DNA of 64,000 nt from Candidatus Zixiibacteriota bacterium (lineage in GTDB: Bacteria > Zixibacteria > MSB-5A5 > GN15 > FEB-12): positions 1-64,000 of the forward strand of contig JBFMDV010000009.1 in NCBI GenBank assembly GCA_040753875.1, written 5' to 3'. Below, in pieces: positions 102 through 25,775 of this stretch (within the stretch, counting starts at the first letter, position 1; each line of letters opens with the position of its first letter). The notes beneath the pieces were generated by a model. That model saw only the letters and a list, made by a program, of their open reading frames with translations. It had not been told where the DNA came from and ran no database searches. Made by a program: the position numbers and the translations under genes.

Positions 102-168
102 CTGAACACCTCCGGACAGGAACATAATCCCATCCTTTCGTTGTGTCCACTAAACCGGGGCAAGGTCA
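1..168 (-). mobile_element. IS3-family insertion sequence, left end only
   Basis: The element runs off the left edge. Its terminus is read on the minus strand from 168: it opens with TGACCTTGCCCC and continues to GTGGACAC, which matches my memory of IS3-family left inverted repeats (TGA, a C-rich block, then GTGGACA). The OrfA start codon lies at 101, about 65 bp inside the terminus, as expected for this family. The right end and the target duplication are outside the window. The boundary at 168 is inferred from the terminal CA on the plus strand. Confidence 0.72.
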
Positions 169-1295
169 AGGACATCTTCTTCCGCGTGTACCCGGAGAAC
201 GCCGCCGCCTATGTTACCCAGACCCTTAACGGCCCGCCAGACGTATTTGATAGCCCAATTTCCTACAACCACCGTAGCGGGAGTTATGATACAACTATCG
301 CAATCCCACAGCTACATAGTGGTCGATTCTACGTGATAAGTGGGTTGCAGGATGCTTATGGTGTGTGGATGACCGGCAGGCCATCGCCTGGGCAATTGCA
401 CGTTGTCGTAACAAACGAACGCTCTTCTGCATATGACCCCAATACTCAGACGCTCTATGTCAGCAATGCTATTGATGAAGCACAGGGCGGCCCAGATGAC
501 TTTGATCAAGATGTGATTTGGCATGAGTATGGACATTGGATCGGTGACGTGTTCCACTTCATGGATGGTGGCGATTCAGTACATTCATGGCGAGACACTG
601 TCTCGCTGGAAACCGCTGGTACCGAGGCATTTGCACATCTCGTGGCTGCTTGGATAAAGGGATCTCCTTTTCTCCAGAACCGGTTTCGCAACTTCACCAA
701 GAGTTTTGGGCGAAACGTGGAAAACGGCGAGTGGGGCTTTGATGGCTTCGTAGACTCTTCGGCCAACAATTGGGGGGCGCAGGTGGAGGCTGCCGTAGCA
801 GGGATTCTCTGGGATATTTACGACTCGCAATCTGATGACCACAGCACTTTTGGTCAGATGGTGTACCCCCACCATGCAGACGGCATCGGCGATACTCTCA
901 GCGATGGCATTGGTGATATCCTTGTGACTCTCATGGACCGTAACATTTCTGGACATCATCCAGATAACATTGAGGAGTTTTGGTCGGCCTGGTTCCAACA
1001 AAGTGCGCCGTTGGGTCACACTCAGGCGATGGCAGATATCTGGTATGAACACGGTATCAACGATGAACCTTGTTGTATTGGCACAACCGGGAACGTGGAT
1101 TACGATCCTCAGGATTTGGTCGACATCTCGGATTTGTCGTACATGGTCGACTTTTTATTCCTTGACGGACCAGACCCCATTTGTCGGGCCGAGGCAAATG
1201 TCGACGCCGACCCTGGAGGGAGTATCGACATTTCAGATCAGAGTGCGCTGATCGATTTCATCTGCTTCAGTATTCCGCTACCGTCTTGCCCGTAA
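141..1295 (+). CDS. Secreted zinc metalloprotease with C-terminal dockerin-like module, 5'-truncated by an IS
   Basis: The open frame starts with a TTG at 141 inside the IS terminus, so roughly the first nine codons come from the IS and the true N-terminus, with its signal peptide, is missing. Residues 128-132 are HEYGH, a HExxH zinc site; a downstream TEAFAH (about 161-166) could supply the third, glutamate ligand as in gluzincins. After the protease domain comes a C-terminal pair of dockerin/EF-hand-like repeats (CCIGTTGNVDYD, then VDISDLSYMVDFLF, then a second DISD repeat), and the chain ends in SCP. No ribosome binding site precedes the frame, so it is probably a dead remnant, unless it is expressed from the IS. 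The protease family assignment is by motif only. Confidence 0.72.
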   Translation: MCPLNRGKVKDIFFRVYPENAAAYVTQTLNGPPDVFDSPISYNHRSGSYDTTIAIPQLHSGRFYVISGLQDAYGVWMTGRPSPGQLHVVVTNERSSAYDPNTQTLYVSNAIDEAQGGPDDFDQDVIWHEYGHWIGDVFHFMDGGDSVHSWRDTVSLETAGTEAFAHLVAAWIKGSPFLQNRFRNFTKSFGRNVENGEWGFDGFVDSSANNWGAQVEAAVAGILWDIYDSQSDDHSTFGQMVYPHHADGIGDTLSDGIGDILVTLMDRNISGHHPDNIEEFWSAWFQQSAPLGHTQAMADIWYEHGINDEPCCIGTTGNVDYDPQDLVDISDLSYMVDFLFLDGPDPICRAEANVDADPGGSIDISDQSALIDFICFSIPLPSCP

Positions 1296-1310
1296 GCATG
1301 ACGATCTGTA

Positions 1311-1345
1311 TCGGCCGCCCTGGGGGAGGACGCCAGGACGGCCGA
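1311..1345. terminator. Hairpin downstream of the metalloprotease remnant
   Basis: Arms TCGGCCGCCCTGG (1311-1323) and CCAGGACGGCCGA (1333-1345) pair with one mismatch over 13 bp around a 9-base loop, 15 bp after the stop codon. No T-run follows, so it is either a weak terminator or an mRNA-stabilising 3' hairpin. Confidence 0.4.
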
Positions 1346-1366
1346 ATCAAAGCCACCCGTTTTCCC

Positions 1367-1395
1367 TTGACAAAGCATCGGATTCTCCGCATACT
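1367..1395 (+). promoter_or_regulatory. Sigma-70-type promoter for the 1536 gene
   Basis: TTGACA (1367-1372), 17-bp spacer, CATACT (1390-1395). Transcription would start near 1402, giving an untranslated leader of about 130 nt before the ATG at 1536. Confidence 0.55.
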
Positions 1396-1535
1396 TCGTA
1401 TGAAATATCGGGCTCCGGTATCCTTCGCCCGAGTGAAAAAACTCTAATAGATTTTGCTTCTAAGGTAGGCCGCATTATTACTCGCTAAGGGATTGTAGTC
1501 GCACAGAAACCTTCTCCCTCAGGAAGGAGCACGCT

Positions 1536-2582
1536 ATGTCCCATCGTCTGGCACACATGGCCAAAGCTGCGGCCCTTATGCCGTTCATCACCTTTGGCTT
1601 TATCGGTGCTTCGCTCTGCGCCCAATCGTACGATCTCACCGTCCGCGTGAACGACACCTCCGCCTATCCCTCTTCCGGCGGCATGCTCAGTATTTACCTG
1701 ACCAACCGCATCGACAGCGTTGCTGGATTCTCAATTGGGCTGCAACTTGACCGACCGGACCTGATCTATTTCCCTGATTTTGCCGGAGCCGATACGGTTG
1801 GTACGCTGATTTCCGGGTGGGAATACGTCAATACGGGATCGATAGGAGGACAGGGTACCGATATCAAGATCATCGCGCTCGCCGATCTGATTGCACCTCC
1901 GGTCACGCCTCCCTTGCCGCCCCGGTCGCAGGAATCGCTCCTGGTGCGAATTCCATTCCTGACCTTTCCTGTTCCGGATACCCTCTCTGACAGGATTGTC
2001 CATGTGTTCATCATTACGGACCCACAACACACCGGCTTTTCCGATCCGCAAGGGAATCTGATATGCTACCCGGGCTACGTGGATACGACTTGCGTCTTGT
2101 ACGAACAGGGCTCTGTCGCAATCGAGGGTTGTGTGACAATGGTGCCCGGTGATGTTCAGGGGGATGGCACTTCTGATATCGCCGACCTTTCGGAACTGAT
2201 TGATTATGTACGCATTGGTGCCGGACAATTGACCGCCCCATACAACGGCGACGTCAATTTCGATTGCTGTGTTGGTTGGGACGATATCGACCAGATCATG
2301 TCCTGGCCGCAGCCGCCGCCTCCGGACCAACGGTGTGTTTGTCTCAATCCGCCCAGATGTTGCTGTCGTGGCCTGCGTGGCAATGTCGACAACGACATGA
2401 ACGACGTCACGGATGTATCCGACCTCACTGCCCTTGTCGAATATCTGTTTCACGGCGGGGGACCATACGGCTGTGATGAGGAAATGGATGTCGATGGCGG
2501 CGGCATGACTGACATTGGCGACTTGAGCCGGCTGGTGGAGTTTCTCTTCTTCAGCGGACCATCACCCGCAGCTTGTCCATAG
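1536..2582 (+). CDS. Secreted protein with cohesin-like N-terminal domain and dockerin-like repeats
   Basis: A 348-residue exported protein of unknown exact role. Residues 1-30 form a signal peptide (hydrophobic core ending ASLCAQ). Residues about 31-190 look like a beta-sandwich of the cohesin/adhesin type (GGMLSIYLTNRIDSVAGFSI). From about 200 there are dockerin/EF-hand-like calcium loops: GDVQGDGTSDIADLSELIDY, then a degenerate copy (GDVNFDCCVGWDDIDQI), then the paired terminal module beginning CCCRGLRGNVDNDMNDV and ending PAACP. The start at 1536 is supported by AAGGAG seven bases upstream. It shares the Cys-Pro-ended module with the genes at 141, 2704 and 22992. Cohesin-like plus dockerin-like parts suggest surface assembly or cell-surface binding, which is inference. 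Confidence 0.72.
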   Translation: MSHRLAHMAKAAALMPFITFGFIGASLCAQSYDLTVRVNDTSAYPSSGGMLSIYLTNRIDSVAGFSIGLQLDRPDLIYFPDFAGADTVGTLISGWEYVNTGSIGGQGTDIKIIALADLIAPPVTPPLPPRSQESLLVRIPFLTFPVPDTLSDRIVHVFIITDPQHTGFSDPQGNLICYPGYVDTTCVLYEQGSVAIEGCVTMVPGDVQGDGTSDIADLSELIDYVRIGAGQLTAPYNGDVNFDCCVGWDDIDQIMSWPQPPPPDQRCVCLNPPRCCCRGLRGNVDNDMNDVTDVSDLTALVEYLFHGGGPYGCDEEMDVDGGGMTDIGDLSRLVEFLFFSGPSPAACP

Positions 2583-2586
2583 TTCG

Positions 2587-2615
2587 TTGACAGGCAATGT
2601 AAAAGAGACTATTAT
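2587..2615 (+). promoter_or_regulatory. Sigma-70-type promoter for the 2704 gene
   Basis: TTGACA (2587-2592), exact 17-bp spacer, TATTAT (2610-2615). It begins only a few bases after the stop of the preceding gene, so the 2704 gene has its own promoter and a leader of about 80 nt. Confidence 0.65.
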
Positions 2616-2703
2616 ACGCTATATTTGGACCGACGCGGGGTGCTATCGAACAGCCCCAGCGTTCGGCTGAACGCTACTGAGGCAGCCACAAGGTATTGAT
2701 GCC

Positions 2704-3609
2704 ATGAAGCGCAAATTCGTTCACGTGGTTCTTGTAATGTTGGTCTGCGCCGGCATCCACGCTCGTGGCGTCGAGCGTCATTTGAGCCAGAGCGCGCCCC
2801 AGCGGCTTCAGATTCAGGAAGCAGCCGAAGTATCGGCTCCATGCATACTGAAGAACCACAATGATACGGCACTTGCCTATTACAGCGGTATCGGCGCCGG
2901 TGAGCGATACGTCACCTATCTCGACCCGGCAGCATGCGGAGCATCGCCGACATATCCGTTCGACGTCACCCAGATCCTCCTGTCGCTGTTCCCGGTTGCC
3001 GGCGCGGTGTGGCCCGTGAGTGTCGATCTCGAAGTGTGGAATCGAGCCGGATCCGGATCGTGCCAGGGTCCTGGCGCTCTTATCTGCAGTCAGCAGGTAC
3101 TCCTGGATTCGGCGGGGTTCGCTTTGCCGCATGTCGGTTCGGTCACGCTGTCGACACTGTGCACGGTTAACGGACCATTCTACCTCTCCATCTATTACAA
3201 TGGCGCAACTTCGGCGGTCTACCCGTCGGTCATGTTCGATAGTGATATGCCGGGCGATTCCTGCCTCAACTGGGGGTACTGGTCAGCGCAATGGTATCGG
3301 TGGAATCATTTTTTTGCGCCTCCAATTCCAGGCAACCTGATCGTATGGGGGATGGGTCAGCCGAGAGCGTCAGGTGACACTGCCGGCTGCTGTGTGGGTT
3401 TGACCGGAAATGTCGATTCAGATGCCGCGCAAGCAATTGATATCAGCGACCTGACATTTCTGGTCGATTATCTGTTCGGCGGGTCCGCTGTTTTGGGATG
3501 TTCCGAGGAGGCCAACCTCGACGGCGCCGCCGGTGTCGACATATCTGATCTGACCTTTCTTGTATCATACCTCTTTTTCGGCGGTACGGGACCGGGGCCC
3601 TGCCCGTAG
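2704..3609 (+). CDS. Secreted hypothetical protein with paired dockerin-like module
   Basis: A 301-residue exported protein. The signal peptide is roughly residues 1-20 (KRKFVHVVLVMLVCAGIHA). The middle part (about 45-215) is rich in Tyr, Gly and Cys and looks like a beta-sandwich; I recognise no catalytic motif or family in it. The C-terminal 75 residues are the paired module: CCVGLTGNVDSD, DISDLTFLVDYLF, CSEEANLDG, DISDLTFLVSYLF, ending GPCP. Four cysteines of the module match those of the sister proteins at 141, 1536 and 22992. It has its own promoter at 2587. An AAGG about ten bases before the ATG serves as a modest ribosome site. Confidence 0.7.
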   Translation: MKRKFVHVVLVMLVCAGIHARGVERHLSQSAPQRLQIQEAAEVSAPCILKNHNDTALAYYSGIGAGERYVTYLDPAACGASPTYPFDVTQILLSLFPVAGAVWPVSVDLEVWNRAGSGSCQGPGALICSQQVLLDSAGFALPHVGSVTLSTLCTVNGPFYLSIYYNGATSAVYPSVMFDSDMPGDSCLNWGYWSAQWYRWNHFFAPPIPGNLIVWGMGQPRASGDTAGCCVGLTGNVDSDAAQAIDISDLTFLVDYLFGGSAVLGCSEEANLDGAAGVDISDLTFLVSYLFFGGTGPGPCP

Positions 3610-6560: not shown

Positions 6561-8375
6561 ATGACACAACGACCCGAAATCACCTGGCAATCTGTTGTCG
6601 GCGCTGTCGTCGTCTCGGCCGTGGTTTCCATGGCCTATCCGTACATCGTCCTCAAACTGGGGATGGGTCCCAACATGAGCGTCATCGCAGCGTTTCTGGG
6701 AGCGATCTTCCTGGCCATAACCGCCCGTGCCACTCACGGGCGCAACGCCGTTCAGAACAACATCATCCAATCCGCGGCCACCTCGGCAGTCTCCACCGCC
6801 TTCATGTGCGTGGTAGCGGCAGCATTCGGTTACCTGGCGATGAATGAGTCGGTAGATGTCAAAGTTACGATCTCCACTTGGGATATGTTCACTTGGCTGG
6901 CCTGTTCAGGCGCTATCGGCGTCTTCATGTCGGCCATGTTTCGGCGATACTTCGTGGACGACCCGGAGATGATCTTCGCTGACGGTGTCGCCGCCGCCGA
7001 GACGATCAATGTGCTCGACCAGGGAGCCGCATCAGGTGCGAAGTTCAAAGTACTTGGTTTCAGTGCCGTCATCGGTATGGTCGTGGCGTTTCTCCGCGAT
7101 GGTCTGACCTGGATCGGCACCCTCGGACTCGCCATGCGGTATCGCATCGGAATCGAATGGGGCGTCTTGAACATCGGCACCGGCATGCTGATCGGCATTA
7201 ACGTGGGGTTGTCGATGCTTCTTGGCACCATGGTGGTCTGGATATTCGGGTCGATGGTCATGGACAAGGCCGGGCTATTCATTGTGCAGAACAGCATCGC
7301 CTCCCAGTATTGGGATCAGGCACAAGCGCTTATCGGGGTGAGTGAACTCTCCGACGTTCAGCGGGAGTTCCTGCATCAGCACGGCGGGCAGATGGCCAAC
7401 TACCTCAATGGAAACCATTTTCCGATCGTCATGCTCTGGTTCATGTGGCCCGCAACTGCGGTCATGATCACCGCCGCGCTAACTGCCGTCATCCTGAAAT
7501 GGCGCTCGATTGTCACCATGTTTCGCGAGCTGCGCGCGCCTAAGGCGGCGGGACACGAACGGACGGATGTTTCTTTGCGGACTATCATGATCATGAGTGC
7601 GCTGTTCACGCTGCTGTTGGCGTTTGTGCAAATGTCCCATTTCGCCATGCCCTGGTGGCAAACGATCGCTGCTGTTATCGCCGGTTTTCCGCTCATTCTG
7701 GTCGGCGTGCGAGTGCTGGGGGAGACCAACAACGGCCCGGTTTCGCTCATGGCGAACACACTGCAGGCGATCTTTCGGGCGTTCTCACCGGCTATCGGCC
7801 ACAACCTGGTAGCAGCCGGTATGGCCGGCAATATCAACTCGCAAGGCGAAGGACTCATGCAGGTGTTCAAGACCGGTAAGCTGGTCGGCTCGACACCGCG
7901 CGTGCTGACGTGGGTACAGTTTTTCGCCGTCCCGATCGGCGCCGCCTCGGTGGCGTTCATGTATCCCCTTCTGATCGCGCGATACGGTCTCGGCGGTGAT
8001 GGTCTCGCCGCCCCTACCGGGCTGAAACTGGCCAACATGGCGGTTCTGATGTCCAAAGGGGTGTCCGCGTTTCCGCCCGGGGCGCTTAAGTGGACCGTGA
8101 TCGCCGCGGTGGCCGGTGTGGTGATCGCGTTGTGCAAAAACAAATTCGGATGGCACTGGCTGCCAAGCGCGGCGGGATTCGGCTTTGCCCTGATCCTCCC
8201 CGGCACACTCAATCTTCCCATAGCGCTGGGCGCGATCTTAGCGTGGATCTGGCAAAAGATGTCTCCTGCCACGTATGAGCGGAATTATGTCACTGTCGCC
8301 TCTGGGTTTATTGGTGGTGAAGCGTTGATCGCCGGCCTGCTTTTGCCGCTGTTGTTCTATTTTGGAGTGTTTTAG
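6561..8375 (+). CDS. OPT-family oligopeptide/metal-chelate transporter
   Basis: A 604-residue integral membrane protein of the OPT/YSL superfamily, which imports short peptides or metal chelates using the proton gradient. The sequence is almost entirely hydrophobic helices with glycine-rich turns. Family-like features are the N-terminal YPYIVLKLGMGPNMSVIAA segment, a QNNIIQSAATS stretch early on, and GAMLIGI-type loops (NIGTGMLIGINVGLSMLL). Length suits the bacterial branch. An AGAGGT ribosome site precedes the ATG at 6561. The substrate cannot be read from sequence; neighbours give no hint. Confidence 0.85.
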   Translation: MTQRPEITWQSVVGAVVVSAVVSMAYPYIVLKLGMGPNMSVIAAFLGAIFLAITARATHGRNAVQNNIIQSAATSAVSTAFMCVVAAAFGYLAMNESVDVKVTISTWDMFTWLACSGAIGVFMSAMFRRYFVDDPEMIFADGVAAAETINVLDQGAASGAKFKVLGFSAVIGMVVAFLRDGLTWIGTLGLAMRYRIGIEWGVLNIGTGMLIGINVGLSMLLGTMVVWIFGSMVMDKAGLFIVQNSIASQYWDQAQALIGVSELSDVQREFLHQHGGQMANYLNGNHFPIVMLWFMWPATAVMITAALTAVILKWRSIVTMFRELRAPKAAGHERTDVSLRTIMIMSALFTLLLAFVQMSHFAMPWWQTIAAVIAGFPLILVGVRVLGETNNGPVSLMANTLQAIFRAFSPAIGHNLVAAGMAGNINSQGEGLMQVFKTGKLVGSTPRVLTWVQFFAVPIGAASVAFMYPLLIARYGLGGDGLAAPTGLKLANMAVLMSKGVSAFPPGALKWTVIAAVAGVVIALCKNKFGWHWLPSAAGFGFALILPGTLNLPIALGAILAWIWQKMSPATYERNYVTVASGFIGGEALIAGLLLPLLFYFGVF

Positions 8376-8410
8376 AGGTCGAGACGCATGGCTGAGAACA
8401 GGCTGCACTG

Positions 8411-10279
8411 ATGTATGGTCAGTTTGTCGTATTGGGCCCAAAAGCCTCAGGAATATCGCCCGAGGCGCTGACTTCGTGGTGGCGTCTGCAGGCAGACCTG
8501 GTTCTTGAACGTCCATCTCCTGATATACTCGCAGCAACTTTCGCCCCTTCGCCACGACAAGCATCGCGATCAGTCGCGCGGTCTGGTGACGGCAACGTTT
8601 TCGTGTCGGTCGACGGATATCTTCTGTGCGAAAATCTGCCGGCCTCGCGAACCCAGACAGAGCATTTCCATTACCTGGCCGATCTGATTCGGAGCGGTGG
8701 GATAACGGCCGGACTTGGGGCCATCCGATACGGCAGCTATAACCTGATCGTATCCGACCTGGCGAGGCGTCGCACCCACGTGGCGAACGATCATCTGGCC
8801 TCCATCCCGTTCTATCATGGGACCTTCGGAGATCTGCATGTCCTCTCTTCCAACCCGGTGGCGATCGCGCGTTCGCACCTGCTACCTAACACGTTCGACT
8901 GGCTGGCGTGTGCCGAATGGATGCGGGTTGGCTATTCGTTCGGGTCCCGCTATTTCTTGCGCGAGGTGCGCCTGCTTGACGCTAATGTCTGTCTGCAATA
9001 CGATCACGACAGCGGCGAAGTAGCGTGGCTGACACGCCCTCCTTCGCCAATCGACAAACTCCCCGAAGCACAATACCCGTCAATCGACCAGTTGAATTCC
9101 GCGTTGAAACAGTCTCTTGACGAGTTGGGTCAGATCGATCCGCATCCGGCTCATTTCATGAGCGCGGGAAAGGATTCGCGCCTGCTCCTTGCCGCCTGGC
9201 CGACAGAGTATGATCCGCCGTGTTACACGTACGGCAATCCTGATTCGCACGAGTTTACGATCGCCCAACAAGTAGCCCGCCTTCGCGGCTCGGAGTGGAT
9301 CCATATCTGGCCGCACGGCGATGAAGCGGCCTCGCATATCGAAAGCATGTTCGATACCAATGGCCTGATCGTGTTTCCGGACCGATATATCGCCGCCAAA
9401 CGGATCGCTGAAAACGGTCACGAGGGTGTGATGGACGGACTCCTGGGGGACACGTTCATGGGGTGGGGTTACCACCAGCGGAGCTCGGCATACGCAGGAA
9501 TGATGGGACGGATACTCCGGCACATCACCATTTACCATGATGACACGGTCGACTCGGTGGGGCTGGAGCGGTACGCGGGGAGACTGTATGTCGATATTCA
9601 GGATCCGAACGTCCGGTCGGCGCTTTCCGGTTATATCCGCGCCGATTTTCTGGCGACGTTGGACGATCACGACGACGCTATCCGCGAGGACCTGATGGCG
9701 GAATTGCGTCGCTGTCTTCCAGCCAACGGTTCGCTCGGGCTGTTGCGCCGCAGGTTCATGCTGGCAAACAGGAGCGCGCATGCGATCATCCATCAAGGGA
9801 CCATGTGCCGCGCATTCGTGCAGCCGTATTATCCGTTTGCTTCGGACCTGGGTTTTCTCGAGTTGCAGCGGCGGATCCCGCTCCAGGTATCGTCATTCAA
9901 CCGCCCGATCATCCGAATTTTTCGCACCTATTACCCGGCCTATGGAAAGATCCCGTACGGCGCGTCGTTGTTGCCGTTGAATGCACCCCCGTTGCGTCAT
10001 CAATTGTCGCAGCAGCTCATAGGGCGCGGTCTGTTCATTCCCGGATTGAGCGGGCAGCTCCGCGGAAAGGCGCGGGATGCCAACAGCTGGGGTGTGTGGC
10101 TGCGTCAGAGCGCGGCACTTCGCGACGTCGCGTGTGAGATGATGCGCCAGGGGGGAATTCTCGACGAGGCGGCCGCGGCCATCACCATGCAGAAGATCGC
10201 CACGGGGGAGATCGCGGGAACAGGCCTGATGTTCCACATGGCGGCGATCGCGAAGTGGCTGAGGCTGGCTCAACGATGA
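8411..10279 (+). CDS. Asparagine-synthase-like protein without the glutaminase cysteine
   Basis: A 622-residue protein with the two-domain plan of class-B asparagine synthetases. The N-terminal half resembles the Ntn glutaminase domain (GSYNLIVSDLARRR, then ANDHLASIPFYHG, then LHVLSSNPVAIA), but position 2 is Tyr where the catalytic Cys of glutamine amidotransferases should be. The C-terminal half has the PP-loop SAGKDSRLLLAAW (about 250-262), which binds ATP and forms an adenylate, and a GLLGDTFMGWG segment in place of the usual SGEGADELFGG. It therefore probably adenylates a carboxylate without using glutamine, as related beta-lactam-synthetase-like and exopolysaccharide-modifying enzymes do. 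Substrate unknown. Transcribed with or just after the OPT gene (35-bp gap). Confidence 0.7.
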   Translation: MYGQFVVLGPKASGISPEALTSWWRLQADLVLERPSPDILAATFAPSPRQASRSVARSGDGNVFVSVDGYLLCENLPASRTQTEHFHYLADLIRSGGITAGLGAIRYGSYNLIVSDLARRRTHVANDHLASIPFYHGTFGDLHVLSSNPVAIARSHLLPNTFDWLACAEWMRVGYSFGSRYFLREVRLLDANVCLQYDHDSGEVAWLTRPPSPIDKLPEAQYPSIDQLNSALKQSLDELGQIDPHPAHFMSAGKDSRLLLAAWPTEYDPPCYTYGNPDSHEFTIAQQVARLRGSEWIHIWPHGDEAASHIESMFDTNGLIVFPDRYIAAKRIAENGHEGVMDGLLGDTFMGWGYHQRSSAYAGMMGRILRHITIYHDDTVDSVGLERYAGRLYVDIQDPNVRSALSGYIRADFLATLDDHDDAIREDLMAELRRCLPANGSLGLLRRRFMLANRSAHAIIHQGTMCRAFVQPYYPFASDLGFLELQRRIPLQVSSFNRPIIRIFRTYYPAYGKIPYGASLLPLNAPPLRHQLSQQLIGRGLFIPGLSGQLRGKARDANSWGVWLRQSAALRDVACEMMRQGGILDEAAAAITMQKIATGEIAGTGLMFHMAAIAKWLRLAQR

Positions 10280-10441
10280 CCTCACCCGCCGATTCCGATT
10301 ATTCAAAGCCACAAGCCCCCCATCTTGCCCTTCAATTCGACATAAGAAACATACATAAATAGTAATAAACAGTAGAAAACGCTTGCAAAGTCTCTCTTTT
10401 CTGCGTTGTTTGAAGTCAAGAGTCAACCAACGGAGGTTACC

Positions 10442-21581: not shown

Positions 21582-21694
21582 CTTGAGTCAAATCGCCCAG
21601 TTTTGTGAATTACGATACTATCTCAGGCAGCCGGGCTACCCCTGCCGATAAGTCGAGATCAAGGGACTGTATTTTCGTGGAGGAGACAAGTGAT

Positions 21695-22927
21695 ATGATG
21701 CATTGGGTACTCACGACACTTCTGGTTCTGACGGCGACGTCGCTATTCGCGGCCGAGAATTGTGTGGAGTGTCACACACAAACAACACCGAACATTGTGA
21801 CCGACTGGCAACTCAGCAAACACGAAGAGAATGATATTACCTGTTCTGTCTGCCATGGCAGCGGGCACCAGTCAGCCGCTGACGTCGCGAACGTGCAGAT
21901 TCCTACGCCCCAGACCTGCGCTCAGTGTCACGAGGCGCAGGTGACACAGTTCAGCAAAGGTAAACACGCGTTTGGCTGGGCCTCTTATAAGGCAATGCCG
22001 ACGACACATGAATTGCCCATGGCCCTTGTGGACGGCATGAAGGGGTGCGGAGGATGTCACAAGATCGGTCTCAAGACCGATGGCGATATCCAGACGCTTC
22101 GGGCCGAGGGAAACAATTTCGGGATCGCCTCGTGTGATGCCTGTCATACGCGCCACACGTTCTCTGTGAAGGAAGCCAAGCAGCCGCAGGCGTGTCAAAC
22201 GTGCCACATGGGGTTTGACCATCCGCAGTGGGAAATGTATGCATCATCGAAACACGGTGTGAGGAATGAGCTAAAGCAGAAGGCGATTCTCCCGTCCTCA
22301 GCAGCAGCTCCGACCTGTCAGACTTGTCACATGCCCGAGGGGAATCACGAGGTTCGCACGGCGTGGGGCTTTTTGGCGGTTCGCCTGCCGCTACCCGAGG
22401 ACCCGCAATGGAAAGCAGACCAGGTTACGATTTTGCAGGCGCTCGGTGTGCTTGATCCCGAGGGCAAGCCGACCGCTCGCCTCGATGTGGTGAAAGCGGC
22501 CGATGTCGCCCGTCTGACGCAGGAAGCATTTGATGCCGAGCGGAACAAGATGCTCACTACCTGCAACCGGTGCCATTCGATGAATTTCGCGAAAGGGGAA
22601 CTCAAGAAAGGGGACGACATGATTCGTGAAATCGATCATCTCCTGGCCGAGGCAATTCGAATAATCGCCGGGCTTTATCAGGACGGCATTATTCCCAAGC
22701 CGAACGGCTACGCCTATGCTTTCCCGGATTTGCTGGCGTTCCACGACGCCCCTACCGTAATCGAACAGAGGCTGTTCACGATGCATTTGAAGCATCGGAT
22801 GCGGGCGTTCCAGGGGGTATTTCATGCCAACCCGGACTATGCGCTGTGGTACGGTTGGAGTGAGATGGTGCGCGACCTGGCCGAGATCAAGGAAATGGCC
22901 GCTGAACTCCGCTCCAAGAAGATCTGA
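21695..22927 (+). CDS. Octaheme c-type cytochrome of the hydroxylamine oxidoreductase (HAO) family
   Basis: A 410-residue periplasmic protein. The start at ATG 21695 is set by GGAGGAG nine bases upstream and the Sec signal that follows (MMHWVLTTLLVLTATSLFA). It has eight CxxCH haem sites: CVECH, CSVCH, CAQCH, CGGCH, CDACH, CQTCH twice, and CNRCH. The GMKGCGGCHKIG around haem 4 is typical of the active-site haem in the HAO family, and the helical C-terminus (FHANPDYALWYGWSEM) fits the same fold. Family members oxidise hydroxylamine or hydrazine or reduce nitrite. I cannot tell the direction, because I cannot confirm the tyrosine that cross-links the P460 haem. No quinol partner gene is adjacent. 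A terminator follows directly. Confidence 0.85.
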   Translation: MMHWVLTTLLVLTATSLFAAENCVECHTQTTPNIVTDWQLSKHEENDITCSVCHGSGHQSAADVANVQIPTPQTCAQCHEAQVTQFSKGKHAFGWASYKAMPTTHELPMALVDGMKGCGGCHKIGLKTDGDIQTLRAEGNNFGIASCDACHTRHTFSVKEAKQPQACQTCHMGFDHPQWEMYASSKHGVRNELKQKAILPSSAAAPTCQTCHMPEGNHEVRTAWGFLAVRLPLPEDPQWKADQVTILQALGVLDPEGKPTARLDVVKAADVARLTQEAFDAERNKMLTTCNRCHSMNFAKGELKKGDDMIREIDHLLAEAIRIIAGLYQDGIIPKPNGYAYAFPDLLAFHDAPTVIEQRLFTMHLKHRMRAFQGVFHANPDYALWYGWSEMVRDLAEIKEMAAELRSKKI

Positions 22928-22991: not shown

Positions 22992-23549
22992 TCACGGACA
23001 CGCGGGAAAATCGCAGGTACCGAAACCGAACAAACAATCTACAAGTACTGCCAAATCGCTGATATCAAGCACGGCGTCCCCATTGATGTCTGCTTCTTCC
23101 CGACACGGGAGGATCGCCGAACAGACTAAGAAGAGCCAGTCGACCAGGTACGTGAGATCCGAGATGTCTACAACATCGCCGAAATCGTAGTCAACGTTTC
23201 CGCGAATGCCATGACAACATACGCCCGCGAAGTTCTGCCAGAATCCGTGATAGTTTCCCAAGCAGCCGAACGACGAATATTCCACCGCTGTCTGGCCGCC
23301 AGTGCCGCTCAGGCGATACATGGGCGAACTGGCTTCGGAGCCAGCATCGGACATGACCTGCCACATGAGCGGTGGAACGGAGTCCGGGCGAATAGAAATT
23401 GATGCCTGAGTAATTACTGCCTTCCCCGCAGAATCAGTTTTCGGTGGAACATCGATTCGAGTGCTGGCGGTCGGCACTTCGCCGGCCGCCGATATGCCAC
23501 AACACATGAGCCAAAAGACAATCGATGCGATCAAGTGTTTTGCAGTCAT
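22992..23549 (-). CDS. Secreted protein with Cys-Pro-ended paired dockerin-like module
   Basis: A 185-residue exported protein with a signal peptide of about 21 residues (IASIVFWLMCCGISA). Residues 22-105 have no recognised fold. The C-terminal 75 residues are the module also found at 141, 1536 and 2704: CCHGIRGNVDYD, VDISDLTYLVDWLF, CREEADINGD, DISDLAVLVDCLF, ending PACP. It starts 9 bp after the stop of the S74 protein gene, so both should be co-transcribed from the promoter at 25939. Confidence 0.72.
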   Translation of the reverse strand: MTAKHLIASIVFWLMCCGISAAGEVPTASTRIDVPPKTDSAGKAVITQASISIRPDSVPPLMWQVMSDAGSEASSPMYRLSGTGGQTAVEYSSFGCLGNYHGFWQNFAGVCCHGIRGNVDYDFGDVVDISDLTYLVDWLFLVCSAILPCREEADINGDAVLDISDLAVLVDCLFGFGTCDFPACP

Positions 23550-23558
23550 GGTGTCACC

Positions 23559-25775
23559 TCATCGAGTGTTTTCGGGCTTGTGGCCAAATTGGGCGGTGCG
23601 TTGTTCCAACTTTTCGAGACGGCTACGGAGTTCATCGTTTTGTGTCTTTAGTTCTTTAACGGCTTCGACGAGGACGGCTGAGAGTCGGGCGTAGTCGACC
23701 GCCAGGTATCCATCGGGATCCTGCGAAACAGCTTCGGGAACGACCTGTTGCATCTGCTGAGCGATGAAGCCGAGATGTCGACCTTCGGGGAAGTTCTTCG
23801 AGGGGAACTCGTCTCTGCGCCACTCGTAGGTCACCCCCTGAAGTCGCGCAATCTTGTCGAGACTGGAAGCGATCGGAAGGACGTTTTTCTTATAGTGTGA
23901 ATCGGAACAGGCTCCAAACGTCCCGGTATAACAAAGATTTCCTGCAAAAGACCCAGCATAGCCGGGACCGGGTGCCGAGCCGTATACACCGTTGCCCCCA
24001 CCAGTGCTAATTCCGGCGACACCCGAATAGCTTCCTGATGAGGTCCCCGTTATAGCATTTACCCCGTTCTGGTTTGAGCTGGCGGTGATTGGGCCAGTGG
24101 CATCGAGTCGCCCATTACAGGCAATCGCGGGACTTGAAGCCTGATTATTGTAGGAGATAGCTTGGAAAGCATACGCAGACGCTGTTCCCGTGCCACATGA
24201 TATTGCCGTTCCAGCAGAGTTGTAGCTCCAGAGTGCGACCGATGTACTACTCCCGTTTCGAACGCTGGCTGCTGCTTCATTGCCCGCCGAAATGGCCAGT
24301 CTGGCATCCGGAGCAGTCGTTCCAATGCCGACATTGCCTGAAGCTGCTCTGATGACCATGCGGTTTGAAGCACCAGCGTCAAATTGCAGATCAACAAGCT
24401 CCGTTGAACCGAATGTTGTCGTGGTACCATTGCTTGACGCGATCCACTTGTCTGCTCCTCGAAGGGGCTGATCTGCATCAAGCGAGATGGCGCCACCTGA
24501 CACAGTTAGCTTGTAGGCTGGGTTGGTTGTGCCGATGCCGACATTACCTGAACTGCTGATTCTTACACGTTCAAGTCCACCGTCAGTACCGATTGAAAGT
24601 CCTTGCCCGCTAAGAGTGTAAATTTGCGATACTTGATTTGCAGCAGTGCCTATTATCAGATCAGAATTTCCATTGTCGCTTCTGAATCTCGCAACGTCGT
24701 TAACGCCTGCAGGCACGACCACGGTCAATTTTCTGTCGGGCGCTGTTGTGCCTATGCCGACATTTCGGTTGGACACAATACTCGGGCCAATTGTAAACAG
24801 GTCTCCAAGACCAGCGCTTACCCATTTCCATTCTTCTGTACTACCTCCGCCAGTACTGCGGTGGTACATCTTGTTTGTACCTTGTCCTTGTGACATGTAG
24901 AACCCGCAGTTAGATCTGTTATCCCACCACAAAAACGTCTCCTGCGATCCCGCGTCCAAGTAGATACCGTTATCTGCCCAAGGTGTCGATGGACCAATCC
25001 CAAAGGAGATGGCACGAGCCCGGCCGTTTACGTCAAGTGTTCGCTCTGGGGTGAGAGTTCCGAGGCCGACGTTTCCGCTTGGCACGATGGTGAGGCGTGA
25101 TAGTCCACCGGCACTCTCATCGACGATGTCGAAATTCCCCGGGTTGCCCGGAATTTCTCCGGAAGATACACTATACTGCCTTCCGCCCGGCAGGCTATTT
25201 AAGAGTGACAACTGTGGCCCGCGACTGCCGTCATCTTGTACTTCTGCAAACCACCTGAATCGGCCCGTACCGGCTACGTCAAGGGTGGTGGTTGGTGTAG
25301 TAGTCCCAATCCCTACATTTCCCGTCAAGCGATAGACGTTTCCATTACTTACCTGCCAGACGGTATCAGTCGTCGGCGTAAAATTGCAGCTATCCGCATA
25401 CGTTGAACGAAATGCATACGCCACAGATACAAACAGTGTACGTGGACTCATTGGACTGTCGGCACCGACCTGTATTTCCATCCAGCGGCGGTCAGATTTG
25501 AACACCGTGTCAGACACAGGGTTCACTTTGCCCAATTTGACAGTGAACAGGCCATTGCGGACAAGGACACTGTCCTGAGTTTCAGTCCAGATGGGCAGGC
25601 CACCGCTTGAGTCAGCGAAAATGGAGAACGTCATCGGGGTTTGGAGGTCTATGGGCACGCCTACAGAGTTGGTGAGACGCCCCTGATAATTCATCTGATT
25701 TGGCGTGGCTGCTAACAGTATGCCTGAGAGAATGCAGAGTCCCAGGCATGCGGCGAACTTGGGCATACGGTTCAT
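23559..25775 (-). CDS. Exported fibre protein with C-terminal S74 self-cleaving chaperone domain
   Basis: A 738-residue protein. The signal peptide ends around GILLAA; residues 25-125 are a domain common on such proteins (NYQGRLTNSVGVPI, then FTVKLGK). The middle contains five copies of the tail-fibre motif GNVGIGTTxP followed by a strand (LDV, LTV, LAI), as in trimeric beta-helical fibres. The C-terminus is a peptidase S74 domain: CSDSHYKKNV carries the Ser and Lys used for self-cleavage in this family, followed by GFIAQQMQQVVPEAV and AVDYARLSAVLVEA. It ends in a coiled coil (LKTQNDELRSRLEKLEQR). The S74 part acts as a trimerisation chaperone and is then released. GGGAGGAG before the ATG fixes the start. 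Confidence 0.85.
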   Translation of the reverse strand: MNRMPKFAACLGLCILSGILLAATPNQMNYQGRLTNSVGVPIDLQTPMTFSIFADSSGGLPIWTETQDSVLVRNGLFTVKLGKVNPVSDTVFKSDRRWMEIQVGADSPMSPRTLFVSVAYAFRSTYADSCNFTPTTDTVWQVSNGNVYRLTGNVGIGTTTPTTTLDVAGTGRFRWFAEVQDDGSRGPQLSLLNSLPGGRQYSVSSGEIPGNPGNFDIVDESAGGLSRLTIVPSGNVGLGTLTPERTLDVNGRARAISFGIGPSTPWADNGIYLDAGSQETFLWWDNRSNCGFYMSQGQGTNKMYHRSTGGGSTEEWKWVSAGLGDLFTIGPSIVSNRNVGIGTTAPDRKLTVVVPAGVNDVARFRSDNGNSDLIIGTAANQVSQIYTLSGQGLSIGTDGGLERVRISSSGNVGIGTTNPAYKLTVSGGAISLDADQPLRGADKWIASSNGTTTTFGSTELVDLQFDAGASNRMVIRAASGNVGIGTTAPDARLAISAGNEAAASVRNGSSTSVALWSYNSAGTAISCGTGTASAYAFQAISYNNQASSPAIACNGRLDATGPITASSNQNGVNAITGTSSGSYSGVAGISTGGGNGVYGSAPGPGYAGSFAGNLCYTGTFGACSDSHYKKNVLPIASSLDKIARLQGVTYEWRRDEFPSKNFPEGRHLGFIAQQMQQVVPEAVSQDPDGYLAVDYARLSAVLVEAVKELKTQNDELRSRLEKLEQRTAQFGHKPENTR

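Follow-up and report, generated by a model that had tools for sequence, protein, structure and literature searches.

The window analysed here is a stretch of 64,000 nucleotides from a Candidatus Zixiibacteriota bacterium (GenBank assembly GCA_040753875.1, contig JBFMDV010000009.1, positions 1 to 64,000), in which four proteins end in a common module of ~73 residues (Table 1). Homologous tails had been placed on the genes at 141, 1536, 2704 and 22992 by the original prediction, which was made from the DNA sequence alone; all four were present, and 24 of the 74 columns of their alignment were invariant. A profile of the four window tails matched 78 places in the 3.29-Mb genome (E<=0.01), ~60 of them above 50 bits, which shows that the likeness of the tails is not a matter of chance. 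The start assigned to the first gene was not established. The TTG at 141 is merely the first start codon within a frame that runs open to base 3, among the first bases of the contig (C9), and the N-terminus of this protein is therefore cut off. Its open frame contains HEYGH, an HExxH motif, at residue 174 and is without a Pfam match.

The protein encoded at 1536 combines the module with a domain of another kind. Its N-terminal domain, which had been predicted to be cohesin-like, was modelled with a cohesin fold, and all 50 of the Foldseek matches listed were cohesins or cohesin complexes (best E 1.2e-7; template-modelling (TM) score by target up to 0.70); PF00963, the Pfam Cohesin family, gave no match to this domain. 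Residues 204-243 hold a second dockerin, a degenerate one that scored 20.3 bits against Dockerin_1, below the cut-off of 22.9 bits. Judged by sequence and model, the 1536 product is a cohesin-dockerin protein with this degenerate dockerin in between.

Table 1. Positions of the module genes, their domains and the cohesin cluster. Positions refer to the window unless a contig is named.
Feature	Position	Strand	Basis
Secreted protein fragment, putative zinc metallopeptidase with C-terminal module; 5' end cut by contig start	3..1295	+	HExxH motif
Cys-clasped dockerin module 1 (CCIGTTGNVD...SCP)	1071..1292	+	Tail alignment, profile
Cohesin-dockerin protein, 348 residues: signal-peptide-like start, cohesin-fold domain, degenerate dockerin, clasped dockerin	1536..2582	+	
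Cohesin-fold beta-sandwich domain of the 1536 protein (model residues 1-150, predicted local distance difference test (pLDDT) mostly >90)	1623..2072	+	Model, Foldseek
Degenerate dockerin repeat in the 1536 protein	2145..2264	+	Pfam Dockerin_1, under cut-off
Cys-clasped dockerin module 2 (1536 protein)	2361..2579	+	Alignment, profile, model
Secreted protein, N-terminal domain without assigned family, C-terminal module	2704..3609	+	
Cys-clasped dockerin module 3 (2704 protein; module chosen for modelling)	3388..3606	+	Profile, model
Short secreted protein, 185 residues, module at end	22992..23549	-	
Cys-clasped dockerin module 4 (22992 protein)	22995..23219	-	Alignment, profile
Cluster [cohesin-dockerin]-[cohesin + T9 tail]-[1-2 cohesins + T9 tail]-[T9 tail]	Contig C22, L116:3684-13446		

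When the stretches around every profile-matched place in the genome were read, 75 module proteins were collected. The profile of the four tails found 18 to 152 places per genome in 20 relatives, and of 132 genomes from the phylum, 117 gave a match at E<=1e-6. The names carried by the profile matches were Candidatus Zixiibacteriota and GN15, together with record titles that include Calditrichaeota. A tandem duplication on contig C5 of the same genome (L139:4685-7417 and 7558-10335) encodes proteins of 911 and 926 residues whose nearly identical dockerin tails end in CAR and CAH. The NCBIfam model NF045500 (Omp28_seleno) matched 8 of 72 module proteins (best E 1e-31), and the C-terminal 55-60 positions of the model match the module; the model seems to take in a dockerin tail.

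Dockerin fold and conserved cysteines

An AlphaFold AF2 model of module 3, built on a 79-row alignment, had a pLDDT of 91.1 and a predicted TM score (pTM) of 0.80, with helices at residues 24-36, 44-47 and 57-69 and cysteines at 6, 7, 43 and 77. When this model was compared with the PDB by Foldseek, ranks 1-30 were all dockerins, and 4fl4_A (TM 0.70/0.79) was also matched by the module profile among PDB sequences (E=1.1e-5). The Asp at position 12 of the calcium loop (D26 and D59 of the modelled module) was invariant in both loops in 79 of 79 rows, as was G12 of the modelled module, and positions 1, 3 and 9 were mostly D or N. Loop 1 had near-universal N or D at position 1 and D at 3, 5 and 9, position 5 being D in 68 of the 79 rows, while position 5 of loop 2 was weaker. 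DISDL occurs in both halves of the module, giving it a repeat symmetry. The fold model, the Foldseek result and the sequence match to 4fl4_A agree with the dockerin pair of the original prediction and, by these comparisons, the module is a divergent type I dockerin with two F-hand calcium-loop/helix repeats. From the loop residues it is expected to bind Ca2+. The length of the first loop, as read from alignment columns, was 14 residues in 64 of the 68 rows that carry a vicinal pair of cysteines (CC-type) and 12-13 in all 11 others.

The CC-type module has four conserved cysteines, namely the CC pair ahead of loop 1, a third that follows helix 1 (mid) and a fourth at the very end. Across 158 modules, both the mid and the end Cys were present in 114 of 114 CC-modules, compared with a mid Cys in 11 of the 44 others (p~7e-25). 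In the modules without CC the end Cys mostly goes with another partner: of the 44, 40 had an end Cys, and in 37 of these 40 there was either a single N-terminal Cys or one in loop 2; neither partner occurred in the four that had no end Cys (p=2.6e-4). The number of cysteines was even in 110 of the 158 modules, against a mean of 84 and a maximum of 108 in 5000 shuffles. The sequences are related and the profile was seeded on CC-type modules, which makes these p-values generous. The search would nevertheless have picked up any CC-module that had no mid Cys, since such a module scores 60-130 bits and the missing residue would cost it only a few of them.

Both AF2 models (module 3 and the 1536 protein) have isolated bridge residues at two places, three positions past CC and immediately ahead of the end Cys, which brings the head and tail of the module into contact. 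The ends of clostridial dockerins are joined by an "intramolecular clasp" in which Tyr5 and Pro66 stack (PMC4728124), and the ScaA dockerin of R. flavefaciens has N-/C-terminal contacts that involve Pro727 (PMC5934362). From the co-variation, the model contacts and an oxidation gene, we infer that disulfides lock the head-to-tail clasp of the module. The oxidation gene holds the only DSBA and VKOR matches in the genome; it encodes a VKOR-DsbA-DsbA protein of 663 residues and sits on contig C23 between two CC-module genes (C23:169312-171300; L123:5313-7301). This position, seen once, is suggestive with regard to the clasp. By eye, the CC-module gene downstream of it starts with a cupredoxin-like stretch.

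The last two residues are CP in all four window proteins, as the original prediction had it, but not throughout the family. CP ended 23 of 41 CC-type proteins in this genome; among the rest, five ended in C, five in C plus one other residue, and others in such forms as CP followed by a few residues. At the relatives' loci CP was terminal in 38 of 81 CC-type proteins, some modules being internal, and in further stretches (400 kb from five relatives, some of whose genomes overlap the earlier set) in 21 of 36. The module itself was C-terminal in 40 of 41 CC-type proteins in this genome and in 71 of 81 at the relatives' loci, and Pro followed the end Cys in 28 of 41 and 42 of 81, respectively. There is a clear preference for Pro behind the end Cys but no requirement for it, and near the terminus the Cys, rather than CP, is the fixed part. 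This favoured Pro may be the counterpart of the Pro that stacks in the clostridial clasp.

Across the family, the ends and the cysteines divide the original prediction. The variable ends tell against an exact CP terminus, and the paired cysteines are consistent with its proposal that the fixed cysteines form a disulfide clamp. No support was found for a special part of an exact CP terminus, be it in sorting or in attachment by a covalent bond: the ends vary, a search of the genome for sortase found none, and the hydrophobic and basic tail of LPXTG-type sorting is absent, the module proteins stopping at or just past the Cys with no cleavable tail after it. With varying ends and no sortase, we reject the idea that an exact CP marks the protein for sorting or cleavage.

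Cohesin cluster, cargo and type IX tails

Matches to the Pfam Cohesin family lie at 13 places in this genome, and six score above the cut-off. A paralogue of the 1536 protein (376 residues, also ending in CP) is encoded on contig C22, and the next three genes, in the same direction, encode products with the C-terminal tail of the type IX secretion system (T9SS); two of these products match Pfam Cohesin and the third a cohesin profile of our own making. The order of this cluster was kept in 20 of 20 relatives inspected, 16 of which had been picked for having both families on one contig and four had not. It was also present in 12 of 20 relatives picked solely by a 1536-like frame, regardless of cohesins; two of the eight misses stop at a contig edge, and one of the 12 has its module below threshold. 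In total, the cluster was seen in this genome and 32 relatives. Across the phylum, 113 genomes had both cohesin and module, 5 had neither, and 4 and 10 were discordant (p=9e-4, a value confounded by ancestry). The proteins of the cluster have one or two cohesins each, for ~75 dockerin proteins, and no large multi-cohesin scaffoldin was found in the genome. In one relative (G102, C11:15601-15777) a cohesin match lies within an open frame of 24,197 residues, a very large putative surface protein.

The genome has 49 matches to the T9SS C-terminal domain TIGR04183 and a SprA that scored 533.9 bits. The module cannot be taken for a T9SS domain itself, for the window modules matched neither TIGR04183 nor PF18962 and 74 of the 75 module proteins are without a T9 tail. 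Module and T9SS tail occurred together in one of 75 proteins in this genome and in none of 45 in other stretches.

Peptidases lead among the cargo. The Pfam matches listed for 72 module proteins included 12 S8 subtilases, three M28, two M14 and one each of C1, M64 and M1, so that about 20 of the 72 match a peptidase family; PKD, TSP3, beta-propeller and FG-GAP repeats were also present, and NCBIfam adds "choice-of-anchor" families. No cellulase family was among the 25 commonest Pfam families of these proteins, 30 rarer families lying outside that listing; a few glycosidases may be among those. A signal-peptide heuristic was passed by 49 of 75 module proteins and 82 of 306 controls when strict, and by 68 of 75 and 170 of 306 when loose. 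This separation is modest, and the case for secretion therefore rests mainly on the types of cargo.

Two neighbours of the 22992 module gene were noted in the window. A multihaem c-type cytochrome with ~8 CxxCH motifs by eye (21605-22927, + strand) adjoins it, and a protein with a C-terminal Peptidase_S74 (endosialidase chaperone) domain (23559-25775, - strand) is encoded directly upstream and co-directionally.

A proposed surface assembly and its relatives

We think it likely, on the combined evidence of sequence and structural models, that the module proteins take part in a cellulosome-like surface assembly that is loaded with peptidases and held together by a Cys-clasped variant of the type I dockerin. 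In such an assembly, one Cys of the CC pair would be disulfide-bonded to the end Cys, giving a covalent N-to-C-terminal clasp, and the other would be bonded to the mid Cys, so that oxidation would lock the domain. The fold, the co-occurrence and the gene cluster suggest that the tail would dock Sec-exported proteins onto cohesins, and the T9SS tails suggest that the cohesin proteins would be bound to the outer cell surface through the T9SS C-terminal domain. Small cohesin-dockerin proteins such as 1536 could, to judge from their architecture, be adaptors, a role already suggested for the adaptor of the planctosome (PMC6461901).

Several observations weigh against this assembly. None of the four window modules matched PF00404 (Dockerin_1) at the curated cut-off, which is an annotation threshold and not a biological feature; at E<=0.001 the family was matched by 12 of 72 module proteins. 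Cohesin matches are fewer than dockerin proteins, and nearly all module proteins lack a T9SS tail although the cohesins would lie past the outer membrane. A VKOR-DsbA gene beside modules was found nowhere in the 400 kb around modules of the five relatives, which leaves the adjacency in one genome. To these are added the generous p-values of the cysteine statistics and the shared ancestry behind the co-occurrence.

The missing T9SS tails pose the question of how dockerin cargo crosses the outer membrane. Cargo may be co-exported with a docked carrier or take another route, or the module itself may be read as a signal. For the first of these, the dockerin tail would be an outer-membrane export ticket: after periplasmic folding and oxidation by VKOR-DsbA, the cargo would bind the cohesin of a T9SS carrier and be carried piggy-back through SprA. 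We regard this as improbable; if true, it would explain both the covalent clasp and the presence of a dockerin where a T9SS tail is expected on dozens of secreted proteins. We also give little credence to the module as a C-terminal export or sorting signal that replaces the T9SS domain and is read, possibly by way of its CP end, at the outer membrane, where the protein would be passed or attached. The nearly constant C-terminal place, ~75 copies per genome on differing cargo, the near-exclusion of T9SS tails and the choice-of-anchor domains would suit such a signal, but the dockerin fold and calcium loops are clear, the ends vary, some copies are internal, cohesin genes are found in the same genome and in a conserved cluster, and the genome has no sortase.

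It is unlikely, too, that the module is a cap stabilised by Ca2+ and disulfides that protects the C-terminus against proteolysis and has no cohesin partner, the cohesin-like domains being adhesive beta-sandwiches. Four or more cysteines and two calcium loops would make a very stable cap, and many organisms that are not regarded as cellulose degraders have dockerins, whose functions cannot be read from presence alone (PMC9012536); the conserved cluster of dockerin and cohesin genes and the co-occurrence of module and cohesin across the phylum argue against a cap. Least probable is that the cysteines serve to coordinate a metal or to link the module by disulfides to a second surface protein, for, although a vicinal CC with two other cysteines could hold a metal and some modules end in CxxC, cysteines are gained and lost pairwise in several geometries, including two-Cys modules, and the head and tail of the module touch in the AF2 models.

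If the preferred surface assembly is correct, one and the same guess at function can be applied to ~75 proteins per genome. The phylum has no well-studied members, and Pfam gives most of these proteins no label at the C-terminal end. The conserved cluster suggests a tie between cohesin-dockerin docking and type IX surface anchoring, in a peptidase-loaded relative of the cellulosome. A covalently clasped dockerin, if it is one, could serve as a robust tag for docking and would allow the role of the clasp to be tested. We found no mention of dockerins together with the names of this phylum in open-licence literature, and no description of a four-Cys clasped dockerin with a 14-residue first loop, of its phylum-wide abundance or of the conserved cluster.

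The module has the fold (TM 0.70/0.79), the two F-hand calcium-loop/helix repeats, the repeat symmetry and the C-terminal place of the clostridial type I dockerin (e.g. Clostridium thermocellum, PDB 4fl4; PF00404). It differs in falling under or being missed by the Pfam model, in the 14-residue first loop of 64 of 68 CC-modules, in its four conserved cysteines and in a clasp that is predicted to be covalent, whereas the clostridial clasp is aromatic-Pro stacking. The cargo differs as well, since cellulosomes carry cellulases and hemicellulases and here peptidases lead. Cohesin-dockerin systems outside cellulosomes are known in many lineages (PMC9012536, which cites Peer et al. 2009).

For Candidatus Stygibacter of the Cloacimonadota, a complex resembling the cellulosome has been proposed, with peptidases as cargo and a scaffoldin attached to the surface (PMC8542988). 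There, as here, dockerins are C-terminal on peptidases (S8 and C25, with glycosidases) and cohesins come with a C-terminal domain of presumed surface attachment; however, Stygibacter has one scaffoldin of 3,755 residues with carbohydrate-binding modules, and the present genome has several smaller, clustered cohesin proteins, ~75 peptidase-rich dockerin proteins and the predicted Cys clasp. The "planctosome" of freshwater Planctomycetes (PMC6461901), a hypothesised cohesin-dockerin complex that would serve to degrade polypeptides, likewise has an adaptor with a cohesin and a dockerin, and M14 peptidase cargo; its anchor is a lamin-tail protein rather than a T9SS tail, the lineage is another one, and the sections consulted describe no Cys clasp. 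Like the type A C-terminal domain of T9SS (TIGR04183/PF18962), the module is a C-terminal unit on dozens of unrelated secreted proteins, but it belongs to a different family, and here the T9SS domain sits on the cohesin proteins and not on the dockerin proteins.

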